Shown: piece by piece, positions 5,002-15,673 of the stretch | Position numbering within the stretch: the first letter of the stretch is position 1 | Layout: every line of letters starts with the position of its first letter | Virus record (IMG/VR): IMGVR_UViG_3300022680_000042 | Span: 1 to 20,393 of that record | Length of the DNA stretch: 20,393 nt | Strand: one strand, 5' to 3' | DNA from: a virus | Position numbers and translations under genes: made by a program | The notes under the pieces: generated by a model | Told to the model about the DNA's origin: nothing | Seen by the model: the letters and a program-made list of their open reading frames with translations, nothing else | Databases searched by the model: none

Positions 5002-7464
5002 TCATCCGTTCCTTATAGATATATTTAAATTTTCGCGCTCGTTAAATTCTGCTTCAATAAGTTCCGACAAACTATCACGTAAGGTTAACACGATTTCCGT
5101 CGGGCCTGCATTATAATCGTTATACGCGCCTCTTGCAGCGACTTCATCCATGAATGACGGCGCGATTTCTTTGGGAACGACAAGTTCACCTGGAGTCAAT
5201 AACGCTGGAACGGTATCAGTATTTCCAGCGCCAGGAACGAAACCCCCACGATTAAGCCCTGCGACGTTTGCGGTTCTCTCCGCGCCGTATGCTACCAATG
5301 CCGCGGCTGCCGCTGCACCGAGTGCAGGCCCTACAATAGGAATGCCTGCAAGTGATGAATAAGCCTTGATCGCACCCTCTTGCGTTGAAATCGCGATGTT
5401 AACAAGCGCCGCGGCCTTGCCGATGGCTTTTAATTCTTTATTTTTAGAGTTTTGAAGTTGCGAAAGTTCTTGCGCCGCTGTCTTCGCCCCTTGCACCTCT
5501 TCGGAATTGACGAAACTTCGAAAATCCGCAAGATTCTTTCCAAAGCGTATTTCGTCTTCCAGATACTGGTTCCGTCGCTTTGTCTCTGCTTTATATTGTG
5601 ATTTGCGGAAATCTTTTTGAACTTCACTTTTCGTTTTAACTTGATTTAGAAGATCATCAAGTTCTTTTTGATTGAAGTTTGCGCGGTTCTCTTCGTCAAG
5701 GCTGTTTGCAATATCAAGGAATGCTTGCTGTCTTTCAAGGTCTTCAAGCTCTTGTTGCTCCTCAAGCAAAAGCTGTTCATCGCGAAGTCGCTGCGCTCGT
5801 TCCCGATCTCTTTGGGCTTGGTTCTCGGCTATTCGCGCTAGCGTTTCATTCTTTTTATTTTCGGCTCTAATTTCTTTCGCGTTAGACTCTGTTATGAGCG
5901 CCTCTTTTGCTGCCTTCTCTTTTTCAAGTGCTTTAATGCGCTCTTCGGTCTTCGCTATAAAATCGCTGTTATCAATTCCGCTTGTCGTGTCTTCTTTTAA
6001 CTCTTTAAGCAAGTTCTTTTGGAACTCAAGTTCCTGGTTGAGTGACCTAATTTTTTTCGCGGAATCATCGCCTTTGTCAAACAATTTAAATAGTGCTTTA
6101 AAGCCGCTTATGATTTCAGGTAAGAACGAAATCGCAAGTGACGCGCCTAGAGTGATTGAAGCCCACATCGTTTTTGCTGCGAAACCAGTTGATCTCATGG
6201 ACAATGACAACGCTATAAATAACGTCCGAAGCTTGACGATGCCCAAACCTAAAATGCTCGCCCCTGCCGTTATGCCTGCAAACGAAGTGACGATCAAAAA
6301 CGCTTTCGTCGCTACCGTCCCAAGGAAACTAGGAAACTCGCGAATCGTTTGGAGAAGCGACGTCAAGCCGTTTAGAACTCCAATCGTTGCAGGCGCAAGT
6401 TTGGAGCCGAACGAAATCGCGAGGCTTTCGACCGTGCGAAGGAACTTATTGAATGCGACGGATACTGTTTCGTTTTTGACAGCAAGTGCATCTTGAAACG
6501 TCGTTGCACGTGTCGTTTCGTTCCCCAGTTCTTTTAATATCTTAGTAGTCAATTCTGACTGTTGGCCCGTTAACGAAATCGCAGCGCTCACGGCTTCGGA
6601 TGATCCAAGTAACTCTTTGAGTTTAACAACGTCGCCTCCGACGGCATCGTTTAACTCGTCCAAAGCACCTTTTAAACCCTTTGCACGTATATTCTGTAAA
6701 GAAAAAGCGCGTTGAACCTCTTCCGTTTGTCCTTTAAGTCTTTTTTGTGCATCAACTGCGGAGACCAAAACCGCGCGGTATTCTGTGAATGCTTGCGCCG
6801 CTGGCTTCGCGCCGTTCGCAGTGAGCGCCGTAGAACTCGCTAGGGCTTCATCAAACGAGATCCCTAGGTTTTTCGCAAGACCGCCGATTTTATTAAACTC
6901 ACGTGATAGCGCCGCAACGGTCGTTACACCGAATTTCTGCGCTGTAAAGAATTTTTCAGCGATTGCATCGGCGCTGCCTGCTTCGTCGCCGTATGCAGTG
7001 AGTGCAGCCGTTAGAGCCTTAACACTCGTCGCGGTGTCCGTCGCGCCCGCGCGTGCAAGATCAACGGCGCTTGCAAGTGCGCTTGTCGCTGCCTCGGCTG
7101 GAACACCTGCGGATACTAGATCAAATAAACCGGCGTTTAATGATTCGAAAGATTCGCCTGAAGACGCGCCTAGAGTAAGTATATCGTCGCTTAAGTCCTG
7201 AATCCCCCGACTTAAAGATTTCGTTTGAAACGAACTTTCATCAAGAAGCGTGACAACGTTTGTGAAACCGTCCTCAAATTTTGAAAAAGATGATACGGCG
7301 GCGACGGCGCTTGCCGCAAGTGCAGCGAACGCGATACTTGAAACCTTCGCACTTTGGGCAAGTGTTTTTTCAAGGTCTTTTGTCTCTTCTTTTGCCTTGT
7401 CAACGGCAGCTTGAAATCCCTTTGCGCTCCCGTTTATTTTAATAAATAAACTTTGATCAGCCAT
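5002..7464 (-). CDS. Tail tape measure protein
   Basis: An 820-residue protein and the largest gene here. It sets tail length and sits inside the tube before ejection. The N-terminal 350 residues match the PhageMin_Tail type: KAKEETKDLEKTL, hydrophobic alanine-rich helices from about 43, then SSFSKFEDGFTNVVTLLDES and YGDEAGSADAIAEKFF. About 375-455 holds long hydrophobic segments that could insert in membrane during DNA entry. About 460-655 is highly charged and predicted coiled coil, rich in E, K, R and Q. Near 705-725 is an alanine-rich hydrophobic helix, and near 740-765 the sequence GGFVPGAGNTDTVPALLTPG is the C-terminal signature common in tape measures. At about 0.15 nm per residue it predicts a tail near 120 nm. 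The ATG has AAGGG upstream and overlaps the chaperone gene by eight bases. Confidence 0.93.
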   Translation of the reverse strand: MADQSLFIKINGSAKGFQAAVDKAKEETKDLEKTLAQSAKVSSIAFAALAASAVAAVSSFSKFEDGFTNVVTLLDESSFQTKSLSRGIQDLSDDILTLGASSGESFESLNAGLFDLVSAGVPAEAATSALASAVDLARAGATDTATSVKALTAALTAYGDEAGSADAIAEKFFTAQKFGVTTVAALSREFNKIGGLAKNLGISFDEALASSTALTANGAKPAAQAFTEYRAVLVSAVDAQKRLKGQTEEVQRAFSLQNIRAKGLKGALDELNDAVGGDVVKLKELLGSSEAVSAAISLTGQQSELTTKILKELGNETTRATTFQDALAVKNETVSVAFNKFLRTVESLAISFGSKLAPATIGVLNGLTSLLQTIREFPSFLGTVATKAFLIVTSFAGITAGASILGLGIVKLRTLFIALSLSMRSTGFAAKTMWASITLGASLAISFLPEIISGFKALFKLFDKGDDSAKKIRSLNQELEFQKNLLKELKEDTTSGIDNSDFIAKTEERIKALEKEKAAKEALITESNAKEIRAENKKNETLARIAENQAQRDRERAQRLRDEQLLLEEQQELEDLERQQAFLDIANSLDEENRANFNQKELDDLLNQVKTKSEVQKDFRKSQYKAETKRRNQYLEDEIRFGKNLADFRSFVNSEEVQGAKTAAQELSQLQNSKNKELKAIGKAAALVNIAISTQEGAIKAYSSLAGIPIVGPALGAAAAAALVAYGAERTANVAGLNRGGFVPGAGNTDTVPALLTPGELVVPKEIAPSFMDEVAARGAYNDYNAGPTEIVLTLRDSLSELIEAEFNERENLNISIRNG

Positions 7465-7759
7465 TTTTTCCCTTGTGTTCTTTTTTCATTCGTTCAAAAA
7501 CATTCATTGCCTCGGCCTTTCCTTTTTCATCGACGATGGGATCAAACGTTTCAGGCCCAACATACGGCTTTTTCATTTTTAAGCCGTGGAACTTCGCTTG
7601 CATTGCAACTTCATCATACGTCGCTTTCTGAATGACAATTGACAAAACTTGAATTTGCCTCGCCGTCAAATTATAAAAATCGTCTAATTTATACCCATAT
7701 CTTCGCGCGAAAATATCATAAACGGTTGCGAAACACGTTTTATCAGTCTCCGCGCCCAT
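7457..7759 (-). CDS. Tail assembly chaperone, frameshifted C-terminal part (gpT-like)
   Basis: A 100-codon frame between the first chaperone gene and the tape measure. Its upstream part overlaps the 149-residue frame by 76 bases in the minus-one register. It has an ATG at 7759-7757 but no good ribosome binding site: the nearest G-rich run is about 19 bases upstream. A slippery heptamer just before the ATG instead allows it to be made as an extension of the first frame, giving GCC ATG as the first codons after the shift. The fusion would be about 225 residues. The text contains YGYKLDDFYNLTARQIQVL, a segment resembling the short tail-assembly proteins that precede tape measures. In lambda, gpG and gpGT arise in the same way and recruit the tape measure protein. 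An independent start remains possible. Confidence 0.75.
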   Translation of the reverse strand: MGAETDKTCFATVYDIFARRYGYKLDDFYNLTARQIQVLSIVIQKATYDEVAMQAKFHGLKMKKPYVGPETFDPIVDEKGKAEAMNVFERMKKEHKGKNG

Positions 7760-8133
7760 GGCTTTTTTAATTTAGTTACCCCGTCATGCATCTTTTTTTC
7801 AGGTTGACTGTCAATGAGTGTTTGCGTGAGAGGGGGAAGACATCGCGATATTAAATCCGTTTTGCTTGAAAATTTATTGACGAAATTTTCAATGCATCCA
7901 AAAAAATGCTGGTCTTCTTGACTTAATAACATAAAAGTCAACTCCGCTATAACAAGCGGATCAAGCGCCTCAAGCCTTTCAGCCAGGTAAACAGTCCCTT
8001 GTTTTTCTTTCGTCGTATACCGGCTGTCCACCCATGTTTGAATAAATAAAGTAAACGGATTTAAAAAGAATCTGCGTTTATTCAATTCAAAAAATTTAGG
8101 GAACGGTTTTAAATTATTTAATTCTGTCTTCAT
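7684..8133 (-). CDS. Tail assembly chaperone, first frame (gpG-like)
   Basis: A 149-residue protein between the tail tube gene and the tape measure, the normal location of the tail assembly chaperone. The ATG has AAAGGA about five bases upstream. Visible features are an aromatic and basic N-terminus (FPKFFELNKRRFFLNPFTLF), a helical middle around DPLVIAELTFMLLSQED, and a basic tail. The last 25 codons overlap the next frame. Codons 122-124 (TTA AAA AAG) form the slippery site, so a share of ribosomes would leave this frame after residue 124. No sequence motif identifies the protein on its own; the assignment rests on gene order and the frameshift arrangement. Confidence 0.7.
   Translation of the reverse strand: MKTELNNLKPFPKFFELNKRRFFLNPFTLFIQTWVDSRYTTKEKQGTVYLAERLEALDPLVIAELTFMLLSQEDQHFFGCIENFVNKFSSKTDLISRCLPPLTQTLIDSQPEKKMHDGVTKLKKPWARRLIKRVSQPFMIFSREDMGIN
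7762..7768 (-). promoter_or_regulatory. Minus-one ribosomal slippage site A AAA AAG
   Basis: On the minus strand the heptamer A AAA AAG lies in the correct phase of the first chaperone frame (codons TTA AAA AAG, residues 122-124). Slipping back one base gives AAA AAA GCC ATG and enters the downstream frame, which has a TAA only six bases before the heptamer and is open after it. This heptamer is the one used by E. coli dnaX. A GGGG run ends exactly ten bases upstream, matching the spacing of the stimulatory Shine-Dalgarno element of dnaX. I saw no convincing downstream hairpin. Confidence 0.78.
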
Positions 8134-8221: not shown

Positions 8222-8401
8222 ATGAAAATAAAAGAAAAGAAACAATATAAAAATGAACGAATAATTTTCAGATTGAAAGAAGACGAGAAAAACATGCTAC
8301 GTGTTCGAGCACTTCTTTATGCTGAAGGGAACTTGTCGGCGTATTTGAGGCATGCAGTTCTAAACTACATGCCTCTTAAAAGTGACCTTAAAGGTGATTA
8401 A
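8222..8401 (+). CDS. Small ribbon-helix-helix-like DNA-binding protein
   Basis: A 59-residue gene and the only one on the plus strand. It reads MKIKEKKQYKNERIIFRLKE, then DEKNMLRVRALLYAEGNLSA, then YLRHAVLNYM and a short tail. The order is a strand (RIIFRLKE), a helix (DEKNMLRVRALLYAEG), a turn with NLS, and a second helix (AYLRHAVLNYM). This matches ribbon-helix-helix and MobC-like small proteins, where a strand R-x-x-x-x-R-L is followed by L-S-x-Y-L-R. It has its own promoter and sits between the tail tube and chaperone genes. Its stop codon overlaps that of the convergent tail tube gene. It was probably acquired as an extra cassette and may be autoregulated or act on phage or host promoters. 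The target is unknown. Confidence 0.72.
   Translation: MKIKEKKQYKNERIIFRLKEDEKNMLRVRALLYAEGNLSAYLRHAVLNYMPLKSDLKGD
8347..8375 (-). other. Long hairpin after the tail tube gene
   Basis: Arms GAGGCATG and CATGCCTC, then one non-identical position, then AGTT and AACT around a CTA loop, make a 29-base near palindrome. In minus-strand RNA the odd position is a U-G pair, so the stem is 13 continuous pairs. In plus-strand RNA it is a C-A mismatch. It begins 22 bases past the tail tube stop codon. No T-run follows, so it is not a classical terminator. It lies in the 3' end of the plus-strand gene. Confidence 0.75.
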
Positions 8402-9285
8402 CCTTCGCCTAAGATCTTAGTTATTTTCGCAACGGCGTTCGCTTGCGCATCATATAGAAGTTTTACTTCAAGTTCAGGAATTGCAAAAACAGTTTCTTCA
8501 AGCTGAATCGGGAAACCTGCACCGACGGCTTTTAAAACGTCGATTTCCATTAATGAACCGTCGCTTCGTTTCGCAGAAACGAGAACTTGCCCATGTTCGG
8601 GGAATGTTGCATCGTTCTTTCCAATAATGATTTCTGAAACTCCGCCATGCGCGGCTTGAACTTTAAAATAAGCGGTATCGTCGGCAGTCATGCCAATGGT
8701 GCCGCTTCCGCCAGTTAGCTCAATCCCAGTGTTTGGAACTTCCACGGCGGTGCTTGCTGTGATTGTTAAAGGCGACGCTGTAATTTTCAAAAGATCGTCC
8801 TGAAAAGACAAGTCATTCCCGTTTGAAAATGATACGTCTGTAGTCGCATAAACGTCAACGGTGTCAGTTGTAACCGCTTTAACGATATATGTTGCATCTT
8901 TTAGATCCGTTTCACTACCAGATTTAGCCGCCGCTGAAGCAATACCAGTTGCTGCCTCGACAACGGACGAACCTTTAACATTTGTGATCGTTCCAACGGA
9001 ACCGGTCGAACTCGCCGCCGTCGTCGTTACCGTCGCGCCTAAAAACAGCTCGAAAAGAAAATCAGGAAACGACTTTACTGACGCTGAGAAAGTGCTGCTA
9101 ATCGTTTTAGCTTCACTCGCCCACGCATAACGGTTTGAACCGCCGAATAAGTCTTCATATTCACTGCTTAAAGATAGAGTTCCGCCCCCGATGATTTTAA
9201 AAATGCCGTATGGCAAGCGGTCAGTTCTTCTATAAGGCACGAGTGAATGAATACCATATGATATAAAGTCTCTACTTAATGACAT
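8398..9285 (-). CDS. Major tail tube protein
   Basis: A 295-residue protein positioned between the tail terminator candidate and the chaperone genes. The ATG follows AAGGGGG with ideal spacing, suggesting strong translation as expected for a major component. The N-terminus SYGIHSLVPYRRTDRLPYG, followed by GGTLSLSSEYEDLFGGSNRYAW, suits the family of tube proteins with a beta barrel and an insertion-loop start. The middle (about 85-170) is rich in S, T, A and V and could be an inserted Ig-like or surface domain, longer than in minimal tube proteins. The C-terminus (about 225-290) returns to charged strands such as HGQVLVSAKRSDGSLMEIDV. No sheath gene accompanies it, which argues for a non-contractile tail. 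Confidence 0.7.
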   Translation of the reverse strand: MSLSRDFISYGIHSLVPYRRTDRLPYGIFKIIGGGTLSLSSEYEDLFGGSNRYAWASEAKTISSTFSASVKSFPDFLFELFLGATVTTTAASSTGSVGTITNVKGSSVVEAATGIASAAAKSGSETDLKDATYIVKAVTTDTVDVYATTDVSFSNGNDLSFQDDLLKITASPLTITASTAVEVPNTGIELTGGSGTIGMTADDTAYFKVQAAHGGVSEIIIGKNDATFPEHGQVLVSAKRSDGSLMEIDVLKAVGAGFPIQLEETVFAIPELEVKLLYDAQANAVAKITKILGEG

Positions 9286-14036: not shown

Positions 14037-14444
14037 TTAATAAACGTTGATGTCCACAAGAATTTTCGTTGCGCTAATAACCTCAATGATTCGACCGACT
14101 GCAAGTTCATTTGTTCCTTGAGTCGTTGAAACAGTTTGATCATCCGAAGCGTAAACGATAGAACCGACGGCGCTTTGAGCTGCGCCGCTTGTAACCATTT
14201 CGAAAATGCCAACACGTTGAACGCGGCAGTTCTCGTCGCCTGCACTTCCTGCGGAGTTGTCAACTTTTTCCCATGCCATACCCGCAAAAGCTGCGCCTGC
14301 TTCGGCTGCCATAGGTGCAAGATAACCAGCGGCGTTTATTTTGCAAATAGCGCCTTTATAAATAATGTCGCTTGCAACGACTGGAAAGGAAATTAATTCA
14401 CGTCCTTTTTCGATTATTTCTTTGTTTGCTGCGAGTGCTGCCAT
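14037..14444 (-). CDS. Small capsid decoration / cement-like protein
   Basis: A 135-residue protein between the protease/scaffold and the capsid protein. It has the pattern of small head-stabilising proteins (DUF2190-like): SDIIYKGAICKINAAGYLAP, FAGMAWEKVDNSAGSAGDEN, then VGIFEMVTSGAAQSAVGSIV and a strand TKILVDINVY. Such proteins sit on or near the capsid surface. The start codon overlaps the stop codon of the upstream gene by one base (TAATG), and a GGGGGG run lies seven bases before. Decoration is a likely role; no biochemical evidence is in the sequence. Confidence 0.7.
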   Translation of the reverse strand: MAALAANKEIIEKGRELISFPVVASDIIYKGAICKINAAGYLAPMAAEAGAAFAGMAWEKVDNSAGSAGDENCRVQRVGIFEMVTSGAAQSAVGSIVYASDDQTVSTTQGTNELAVGRIIEVISATKILVDINVY

Positions 14445-14863
14445 TACATCCCCCCATTATACTTGATGTAGTCTTCTTTTGAGATCCCAAGCGCTTTAAT
14501 CGCTTTAAGGTCCTCTTCGCTTAATTTTACGTCGTCGTTGTTTTTAGCTACCGCGCCTTTTGACTCAACTTTAACGTTTGTTGCAAGTGAAAGGACTTCA
14601 TGAAGACCTTTACCTTCATTCATCGCTTTCAATTGAGCGGCGTTTATTTTGCCTTCGTCAAAAAGAACTTTATTTTTTGCTTCAAGTTCTGCTTTTGCTT
14701 TTTCAGATTCAAGAGTTTCAAGTTTTTCAGAAAGTTTTTTATTTTCATCTTTCATTGAAGACAAAATCGTTTTTGTTTTTCCCTCGGTAAGTTGAAACTC
14801 AACGATTTGCTTTTCAAGTTTCCCGACGACTTCTTTGTGCTCAGAAAGTTTAATAGTTTCCAT
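14444..14863 (-). CDS. Nested scaffold protein, internal start in the protease gene (Mu gpZ-like)
   Basis: An ATG at codon 271 of the protease gene (14863-14861) is preceded by GAAGGGG with good spacing, a better site than most starts in this window. Translation from it would give 139 residues, METIKLSEHKEVVGKLEKQI onward: a coiled coil, a short GKINAAQLKAM helix and the shared C-terminus. Lambda Nu3 and Mu gpZ are made as in-frame internal products of the protease gene in the same way. I infer that a free scaffold is made and then cleaved or lost. It shares its stop codon with the long product. Confidence 0.75.
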   Translation of the reverse strand: METIKLSEHKEVVGKLEKQIVEFQLTEGKTKTILSSMKDENKKLSEKLETLESEKAKAELEAKNKVLFDEGKINAAQLKAMNEGKGLHEVLSLATNVKVESKGAVAKNNDDVKLSEEDLKAIKALGISKEDYIKYNGGM

Positions 14864-15673
14864 TGTATCCCCTTCTTTCATCTTTTCTTTTAATGAAACG
14901 ATCGCATCCATTTTTAAAAATGGGCGATTGACAAGACCACCACCGAGCAAAGTCGGGCCGTGCTCTTTGCCAGTATGCGGATGAACATAGTTCATATTAA
15001 ATTCTGGCGAAAAATACCGAAAATCTTTGTCGCTCAATGCTTGCGCGCCTTTCGGTGTCCAAACTACTTCGCCAAATAAAGTTTTACCGTCGTATGAAAC
15101 AAAGACATCCTTTAACCATCCCGCCGCTTTTCCCATGTCATGATCAAAATCAATCGAAATATCTACGCCAGTTACTTTATTTTTAAAGTTATCCGCAAAC
15201 TTTATCAACATATCTTTCGTTATTTCGATCTCGCCATAGTTGACGTGATAACCCTTAACGACTTTTGCAAGCTCTATAATATGAGGAAGTAACGAACCGA
15301 GTTTAATGGTTTTGTCGTCATTCCTCAATGACAAAAAATGCATTTCCGCCATTGTATCGACTTTTAAAAGTCCAATACGTGCAAAAACGCTTTTTGTCAC
15401 TTCTATTTTTTTTAAACTACTTTCGACAAACTCGCTTTTGTCATATTGATCTATTTCAAAAACGCTTGTTTTGTCTTTTACGACATCTACTATGAAGCCC
15501 TGTTCACGCGCCCAAACACGCGCGTCCTGTTCCTCTTCAAAAATGTTTTTGTCAAATATCAATGATTGAATAACAGACGAAGGATCGACATTTAATTCTT
15601 TTAATCGCTCCTCAACGTTATCCACTGATACATAAAACTCCTTGTCTAAAAGGAAATTTTTAATTAAAGCCAT
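14444..15673 (-). CDS. Prohead protease with C-terminal scaffold (Mu I-like)
   Basis: A 409-residue protein in three parts. The N-terminal part (about 1-95) has EEEQDARVWAREQGFIVDVV, a helical motif found in other prohead proteases. Residues about 100-255 match the Mu I family: VDISIDFDHDMGKAAGWLKD at 170-189, LFGEVVWTPKGAQAL at 199-213, DKDFRYFSPEF at 215-225, and TLLGGGLVNRPFLKM at 241-255. Residues 271-409 are scaffold-like: a long charged coiled coil (SEKLETLESEKAKAELEAKN) and a short C-terminal domain. The protease cleaves the scaffold and processes the head in Mu. The ATG has GGGGGG three to four bases away. I cannot name the catalytic residues with confidence. Confidence 0.85.
   Translation of the reverse strand: MALIKNFLLDKEFYVSVDNVEERLKELNVDPSSVIQSLIFDKNIFEEEQDARVWAREQGFIVDVVKDKTSVFEIDQYDKSEFVESSLKKIEVTKSVFARIGLLKVDTMAEMHFLSLRNDDKTIKLGSLLPHIIELAKVVKGYHVNYGEIEITKDMLIKFADNFKNKVTGVDISIDFDHDMGKAAGWLKDVFVSYDGKTLFGEVVWTPKGAQALSDKDFRYFSPEFNMNYVHPHTGKEHGPTLLGGGLVNRPFLKMDAIVSLKEKMKEGDTMETIKLSEHKEVVGKLEKQIVEFQLTEGKTKTILSSMKDENKKLSEKLETLESEKAKAELEAKNKVLFDEGKINAAQLKAMNEGKGLHEVLSLATNVKVESKGAVAKNNDDVKLSEEDLKAIKALGISKEDYIKYNGGM

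Follow-up and report, generated by a model that had tools for sequence, protein, structure and literature searches.

Gene neighbourhood and reading frames

The window (the whole stretch of DNA analysed, 20,393 bases long; its IMG/VR virus record is classified as linear and as a probable fragment) carries on its minus strand the structural module of a Mu-like phage, including a portal, a Mu-like protease and a gpT major head protein, the last of which is approximately 31% identical to its counterparts in Mu-like phages, those of Pseudomonas included. The head module is followed on the same strand by (i) a probable tube gene, (ii) two small overlapping frames (ORF1 and ORF2) and (iii) a tape-measure gene. 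The two frames, assigned here to a tail assembly chaperone, are placed between a tape-measure gene recognized by family matches and a tube gene for which no family match was found, and which was named from its position and conservation only. A profile search of cellular genomes revealed no relative of the tube protein, and neither this protein nor ORF1 had a match among 50,697 phage records. The features of the locus are listed in Table 1.

Table 1. Position of the identified genes and sequence elements within the window
Feature	Position	Strand	Basis
Tape-measure gene, starting inside the end of ORF2	5002..7464	-	PF10145 and several tape-measure PHROGs
ORF2, -1 frame, gpT-like part, 101 codons after the slip	7457..7762	-	Conserved domain; no start codon for the whole domain in relatives
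ORF1, putative tail assembly chaperone N-domain (lambda gpG-like), 0-frame product of 149 aa	7684..8133	-	ORF, gene place, fold model
Downstream stem, 3' arm (TTTTCGCGC)	7705..7713	-	Folding and register analysis
Downstream stem, 5' arm (GCGCGGAGA), from 6 nt after the heptamer	7747..7755	-	Folding; stem found family-wide
Slippery heptamer A AAA AAG, in phase, predicted to be the used site	7762..7768	-	Position and phase the same in 17/17 distinct relatives
Shine-Dalgarno-like GGGG (CGGGGTA), possible 5' stimulator, 10 nt before the heptamer	7779..7782	-	Duplex energy
Upstream A AAA AAG, in phase, probably incidental	7792..7798	-	No Shine-Dalgarno, no placed stem, not in relatives
Probable tail tube protein	8398..9285	-	Position and conservation; relatives 54–73% identical, most full-length

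The ATG of ORF1 is preceded by a Shine-Dalgarno-like sequence, AAAGGA. Direct reading of the sequence revealed TTA AAA AAG at 7770-7762, which places the heptamer in the phase of ORF1. The initial annotation had proposed that a -1 slip at this site yields LKK followed by AMGAETDK, and this was borne out by the sequence, in which the shifted frame reads on as GCC ATG GGC GCG GAG. The -1 frame is open since its last stop (TAA, 7774-7772). This stop indeed lies just before the heptamer, as claimed, but the gap between them is three bases and not six, the latter figure being the distance between their first bases; all other coordinates in the annotation were correct. The predicted fusion comprises 225 residues (124 + 101). 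The second frame contains an internal in-frame ATG at 7759, 9 nt from the start of the heptamer, which the annotation had not mentioned and which has no Shine-Dalgarno sequence at a usable distance; the annotation had described the second frame as lacking its own ribosome binding site. In the window ORF1 runs 25 codons beyond the slip site (PWARRLIKRVSQPFMIFSREDMGIN; 7684-7761, minus strand), and its counterparts in the relatives described below stop within 6 codons.

No sequence family match was obtained for ORF1 or ORF2 of the window, and comparison with families and PDB sequences provided no firm name. In an AlphaFold model of ORF1, residues 11–108 form a core of high pLDDT, and the slip site falls in the tail of low confidence that comes after it. 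The only PDB matches of this model with Z of at least 2 were 3KLU (YqbN, Z 5.6) and 3FGX (Z 4.6), both weak and both phage tail assembly chaperones (PMC9603447). Many of the BFVD fold matches are named tail assembly chaperones, none of them below E 0.001, and the Pfam family Phage_TAC_12 matched weakly in 3 of 16 family members. The ORF2 model had no informative PDB match. The fold model, Phage_TAC_12 and the gene order agree in pointing to a tail chaperone, the fold and the family evidence each being weak when taken alone.

Several other features of the window were recorded. A 59-aa ORF (plus strand, 8222-8401; MKIKEKKQYKNERIIFRLKEDEKNMLRVRALLYAEGN...), possibly ribbon-helix-helix-like as judged by eye, occupies the antisense strand between the tube gene and ORF1, and a counterpart (32–49% identical) is kept at the same place in 14 of 17 relatives. 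Within the Mu-like protease gene (14444-15673), an in-frame ATG at 14863 (minus strand) is preceded at a distance of approximately 6 nt by GAAGGGG, and may be the start codon of a nested scaffold protein like that of Mu. The tail module is followed by three tandem paralogous genes (minus strand, 493-2973; individually 493-1317, 1322-2149 and 2137-2973), which are 26–30% identical (E about 1e-12 or better) and probably encode tail appendage proteins; the adjacent segment 3-479 has only a short WFN motif in common with them.

Conservation of the frame overlap in related loci

Searches with the ORF1 protein alone yielded no matches, and relatives were reached by using the head, tube and tape-measure proteins as queries. 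Seventeen distinct close relatives were analysed (L002, L003, L004, L013-L016, L018-L025, L034 and L036); L017, apparently a copy of L016, is not counted among them. Their ORF1 products are 21–31% identical to that of the window.

In all 17 distinct relatives (18/18 with the window) an in-phase A AAA AAG or A AAA AAA is present at the frame overlap, with the second frame at -1. The corresponding protein position reads LKK (RKK in L013), and the two lysines at the slip are among only five invariant residues in the ORF1 alignment. Given Leu-Lys-Lys, the probability of a heptamer, calculated from codon usage, ranged from 0.14 to 0.53 per sequence, i.e. a joint chance of approximately 7e-8 for the first 16 sequences if these are independent, a figure that shared ancestry makes optimistic. 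The 0-frame stop is found 0–18 nt after the heptamer in all 17 relatives (TAA directly after it in three, the others at 3, 15 or 18 nt) and at 75 nt in the window only.

In the relatives, the first 100 nt of the second frame after the slip contained no ATG, GTG or TTG, except in L025 (ATG at +36) and L034 (ATG at +63), where both codons lie within or close to the conserved domain. The ATG at +9 in the window has no counterpart in any of the 17. The fusion is consequently the only sensible route to the conserved second domain, since the heptamer is in phase and the relatives provide no full-length start of its own. A broken heptamer combined with separate starts, the arrangement that the initial annotation had named as evidence against its proposal, was found in none of them. 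This comparison (17/17 relatives) strongly supports the proposal that the two tail-chaperone frames are joined by a -1 frameshift at 7768-7762.

Among farther relatives, in-phase slip sites of other kinds were observed at the overlap, namely A AAA AAC (L006, L007) and G GGA AAC (L039). Runs of 8 or 9 A occupy the slip site in three distant relatives (L030, 3645-3652; L040, 3517-3525; L043, 3638-3646), and at such runs polymerase slippage could replace ribosomal slippage or add to it.

Sequences flanking the slip site

Folding of the 72–80 nt that follow the heptamer revealed a long stem, which opens approximately 6 nt on and closes roughly 55–60 nt later. As a control, the -1 frame was recoded synonymously with the codon usage of each locus. 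Against this background the stem gave a mean z of -2.62 over the first 16 sequences (Stouffer -10.5), as compared with -0.38 and -0.41 for control stretches 90 and 159 nt further downstream. With the later-added L034 (z -3.7), the stem is present in 17 of 18 sequences. The remaining one, L036 (at 3694), keeps the heptamer without a stem (z +0.2) and offers a natural contrast for the role of this structure. RNAalifold applied to the raw alignment returned a stem of only 4 pairs, because the sequences pair in different registers; counting within a single register also gave modest numbers, and splitting the sequences by register resolved the pairing. Within two registers, one codon apart, compensatory changes keep the arms paired (e.g. 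G-C to A-U at columns 44/104 and 46/102, and A-U to C-G at 48/97). The window has its own register of nine pairs, and its stem, when considered alone, reaches only marginal significance (z -1.62, p 0.07). Counted from the first base of the P-site codon, this stem begins at 12 nt, and in dnaX a distance of 11–12 nt between these points has been reported to act (PMC7282821).

The GGGG run occupies the position given in the initial annotation, ten bases before the heptamer, which falls within the spacing of 9–14 nt described for Shine-Dalgarno stimulation of -1 frameshifting (PMC5009743). No other stretch of ORF1 matches the anti-Shine-Dalgarno sequence as strongly as CGGGGTA (duplex -6.3 kcal/mol). 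Many relatives carry a stronger GGAGG or AGAGG, L020 and L022 being examples with a strong element, and in some (L023, L025) the element is weak or absent. Its signal relative to synonymous recoding was modest (mean z -0.90, Stouffer -3.8). Since the element partly follows from the Glu/Asp-rich protein sequence, as the recoding revealed, strong conservation, which had been considered, was withdrawn; a conserved Shine-Dalgarno-like 5' stimulator is likely, and less consistent than the stem.

The heptamer at 7798-7792 is in phase and its -1 path (GAT GCA TGA) soon reaches a stop (TGA, 7786-7784), exactly as had been annotated. Such a stop within a few codons is the usual outcome of a -1 slip at most places in a gene. 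No Shine-Dalgarno sequence (best duplex dG +0.7) and no suitably placed stem accompany this heptamer, and it does not occur at that place in the relatives. The other genes of the window contain 11 in-phase A_AAA_AAR sites in 5,942 codons, so one extra heptamer near the frameshift is unremarkable. The suggestion that two slip sites act here, each with its own outcome, was therefore not upheld, the upstream heptamer being specific to the window, devoid of stimulators and within the background rate.

Proposed mechanism and comparison with known systems

The locus is best explained as a pair of tail assembly chaperone genes in a Mu-like phage, predicted from its sequence to be expressed by programmed -1 ribosomal frameshifting (probability of about 0.93). 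Most ribosomes would read ORF1 through to its stop, giving the short chaperone. A fraction would pause, with the downstream stem at the mRNA entry channel and the Shine-Dalgarno-like stretch paired with 16S rRNA; the lysyl-tRNAs on A AAA AAG would then re-pair one base back, and reading of the -1 frame would yield the fusion. By analogy with lambda gpG/gpGT, the N-domain would cover the tape-measure protein, and tube subunits would be brought in by the extension. The points against this reading are the marginal stem of the window, its weaker 5' element, the 25-codon overrun of ORF1, the ATG found after the site in the window only, the lack of a sequence family match for ORF1 and ORF2, and the low Z of the fold matches.

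That ATG might allow ORF2 to be produced as a separate protein, by reinitiation or coupling. It is in frame and close to the slip site, but 19 nt separate it from the end of the closest G-rich stretch, a distance too large for normal initiation, and it occurs in no relative, yet the heptamer is in phase in all; we regard separate synthesis as most improbable. Slippage of RNA polymerase on the A run, producing mRNAs one base short or two bases long, would fit a homopolymeric site and the longer runs of the three distant relatives mentioned above, and the literature documents it at runs of 9 A (PMC5009743). Only 6 A are present in the window and in most close relatives, however; the phase of A_AAA_AAR is strictly kept, and a stem and a Shine-Dalgarno-like element at ribosomal distances would have no obvious role in this process, which makes it a very improbable source of the second product.

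The two in-phase A AAA AAG heptamers of the window might also cooperate, the upstream one leading to a truncated chaperone of 116 residues and the downstream one to the fusion, in a three-way product ratio. This is improbable in view of the absence of the upstream site from the relatives, its lack of accompanying elements and the background frequency of such heptamers in other genes of the window. The chance that an error in sequencing or assembly has split a single gene into two frames is practically nil: the window is a metagenomic contig, but 17 other distinct contigs show the same break at the same site, by which this reading is already refuted.

With programmed ribosomal frameshifting as the preferred reading, the locus appears to represent a known kind, i.e. 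a chaperone frameshift of the lambda G/GT type in a divergent Mu-like lineage; the less usual trait would be a dnaX-like arrangement throughout the family. The lambda G/GT pattern would thereby gain a family of tail chaperones that is divergent in sequence and escapes Pfam and PHROGs, and annotators can join both frames in these phages. It is conceivable, although unlikely, that this lineage relies on a complete dnaX-type cassette rather than on a simple slip site, which raises the proportion of fusion far above the few percent of lambda- and HK97-like systems (6–7% is an example for lambda-type genes; PMC3711429), with further tuning by the upstream A AAA AAG in the window. A high proportion of this kind would mean that the stoichiometry of the chaperones during tail assembly is different. 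The 18 natural cassettes, with stem and A AAA AAG, bear on the question of how stimulator strength sets the chaperone ratio and tail length.

Tail chaperone frameshifts are widely conserved and usually -1 (PMC5009743), the -2 shift of Mu being an exception (PMC4378225, PMC2628397). Phage Mu gp41-gp42 resembles the window in combining this type of head module with a frame change in the chaperone, and differs in the size of the reported shift. Closer in this respect are the D3112-like Mu-like Pseudomonas siphophages (PaMx73), with Mu-like head genes and -1 chaperone frames (PMC4378225). The slip site proposed for PaMx73 is T TTT TTC (PMC4378225), in contrast to the A AAA AAG of the window, whose ORF1 and tube proteins are, as noted above, without a match in phage records.

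The lambda gpG/gpGT system shares with the window the order of tube, chaperone, -1 extension and tape measure, as well as a short product and a fusion (PMC5009743; PMC7618472), which in the window are predicted. Its slip site is G GGA AAG, whereas the family described here has A AAA AAG in the window, a conserved stem and often a clear 5' Shine-Dalgarno-like element, and the chaperone frames of the window have no lambda-type family match by sequence. The likeness to E. coli dnaX, which comprises A AAA AAG, a short spacer, a stem-loop and, less consistently, a Shine-Dalgarno-like element (PMC5009743, PMC3711429, PMC7282821), is closer than the initial annotation had claimed from the GGGG run and the heptamer, because a conserved downstream stem is also present. 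The two nevertheless differ in the gene concerned, in the weak 5' element of the window and in the outcome of the slip, which shortens the dnaX product and would lengthen that of the phage.
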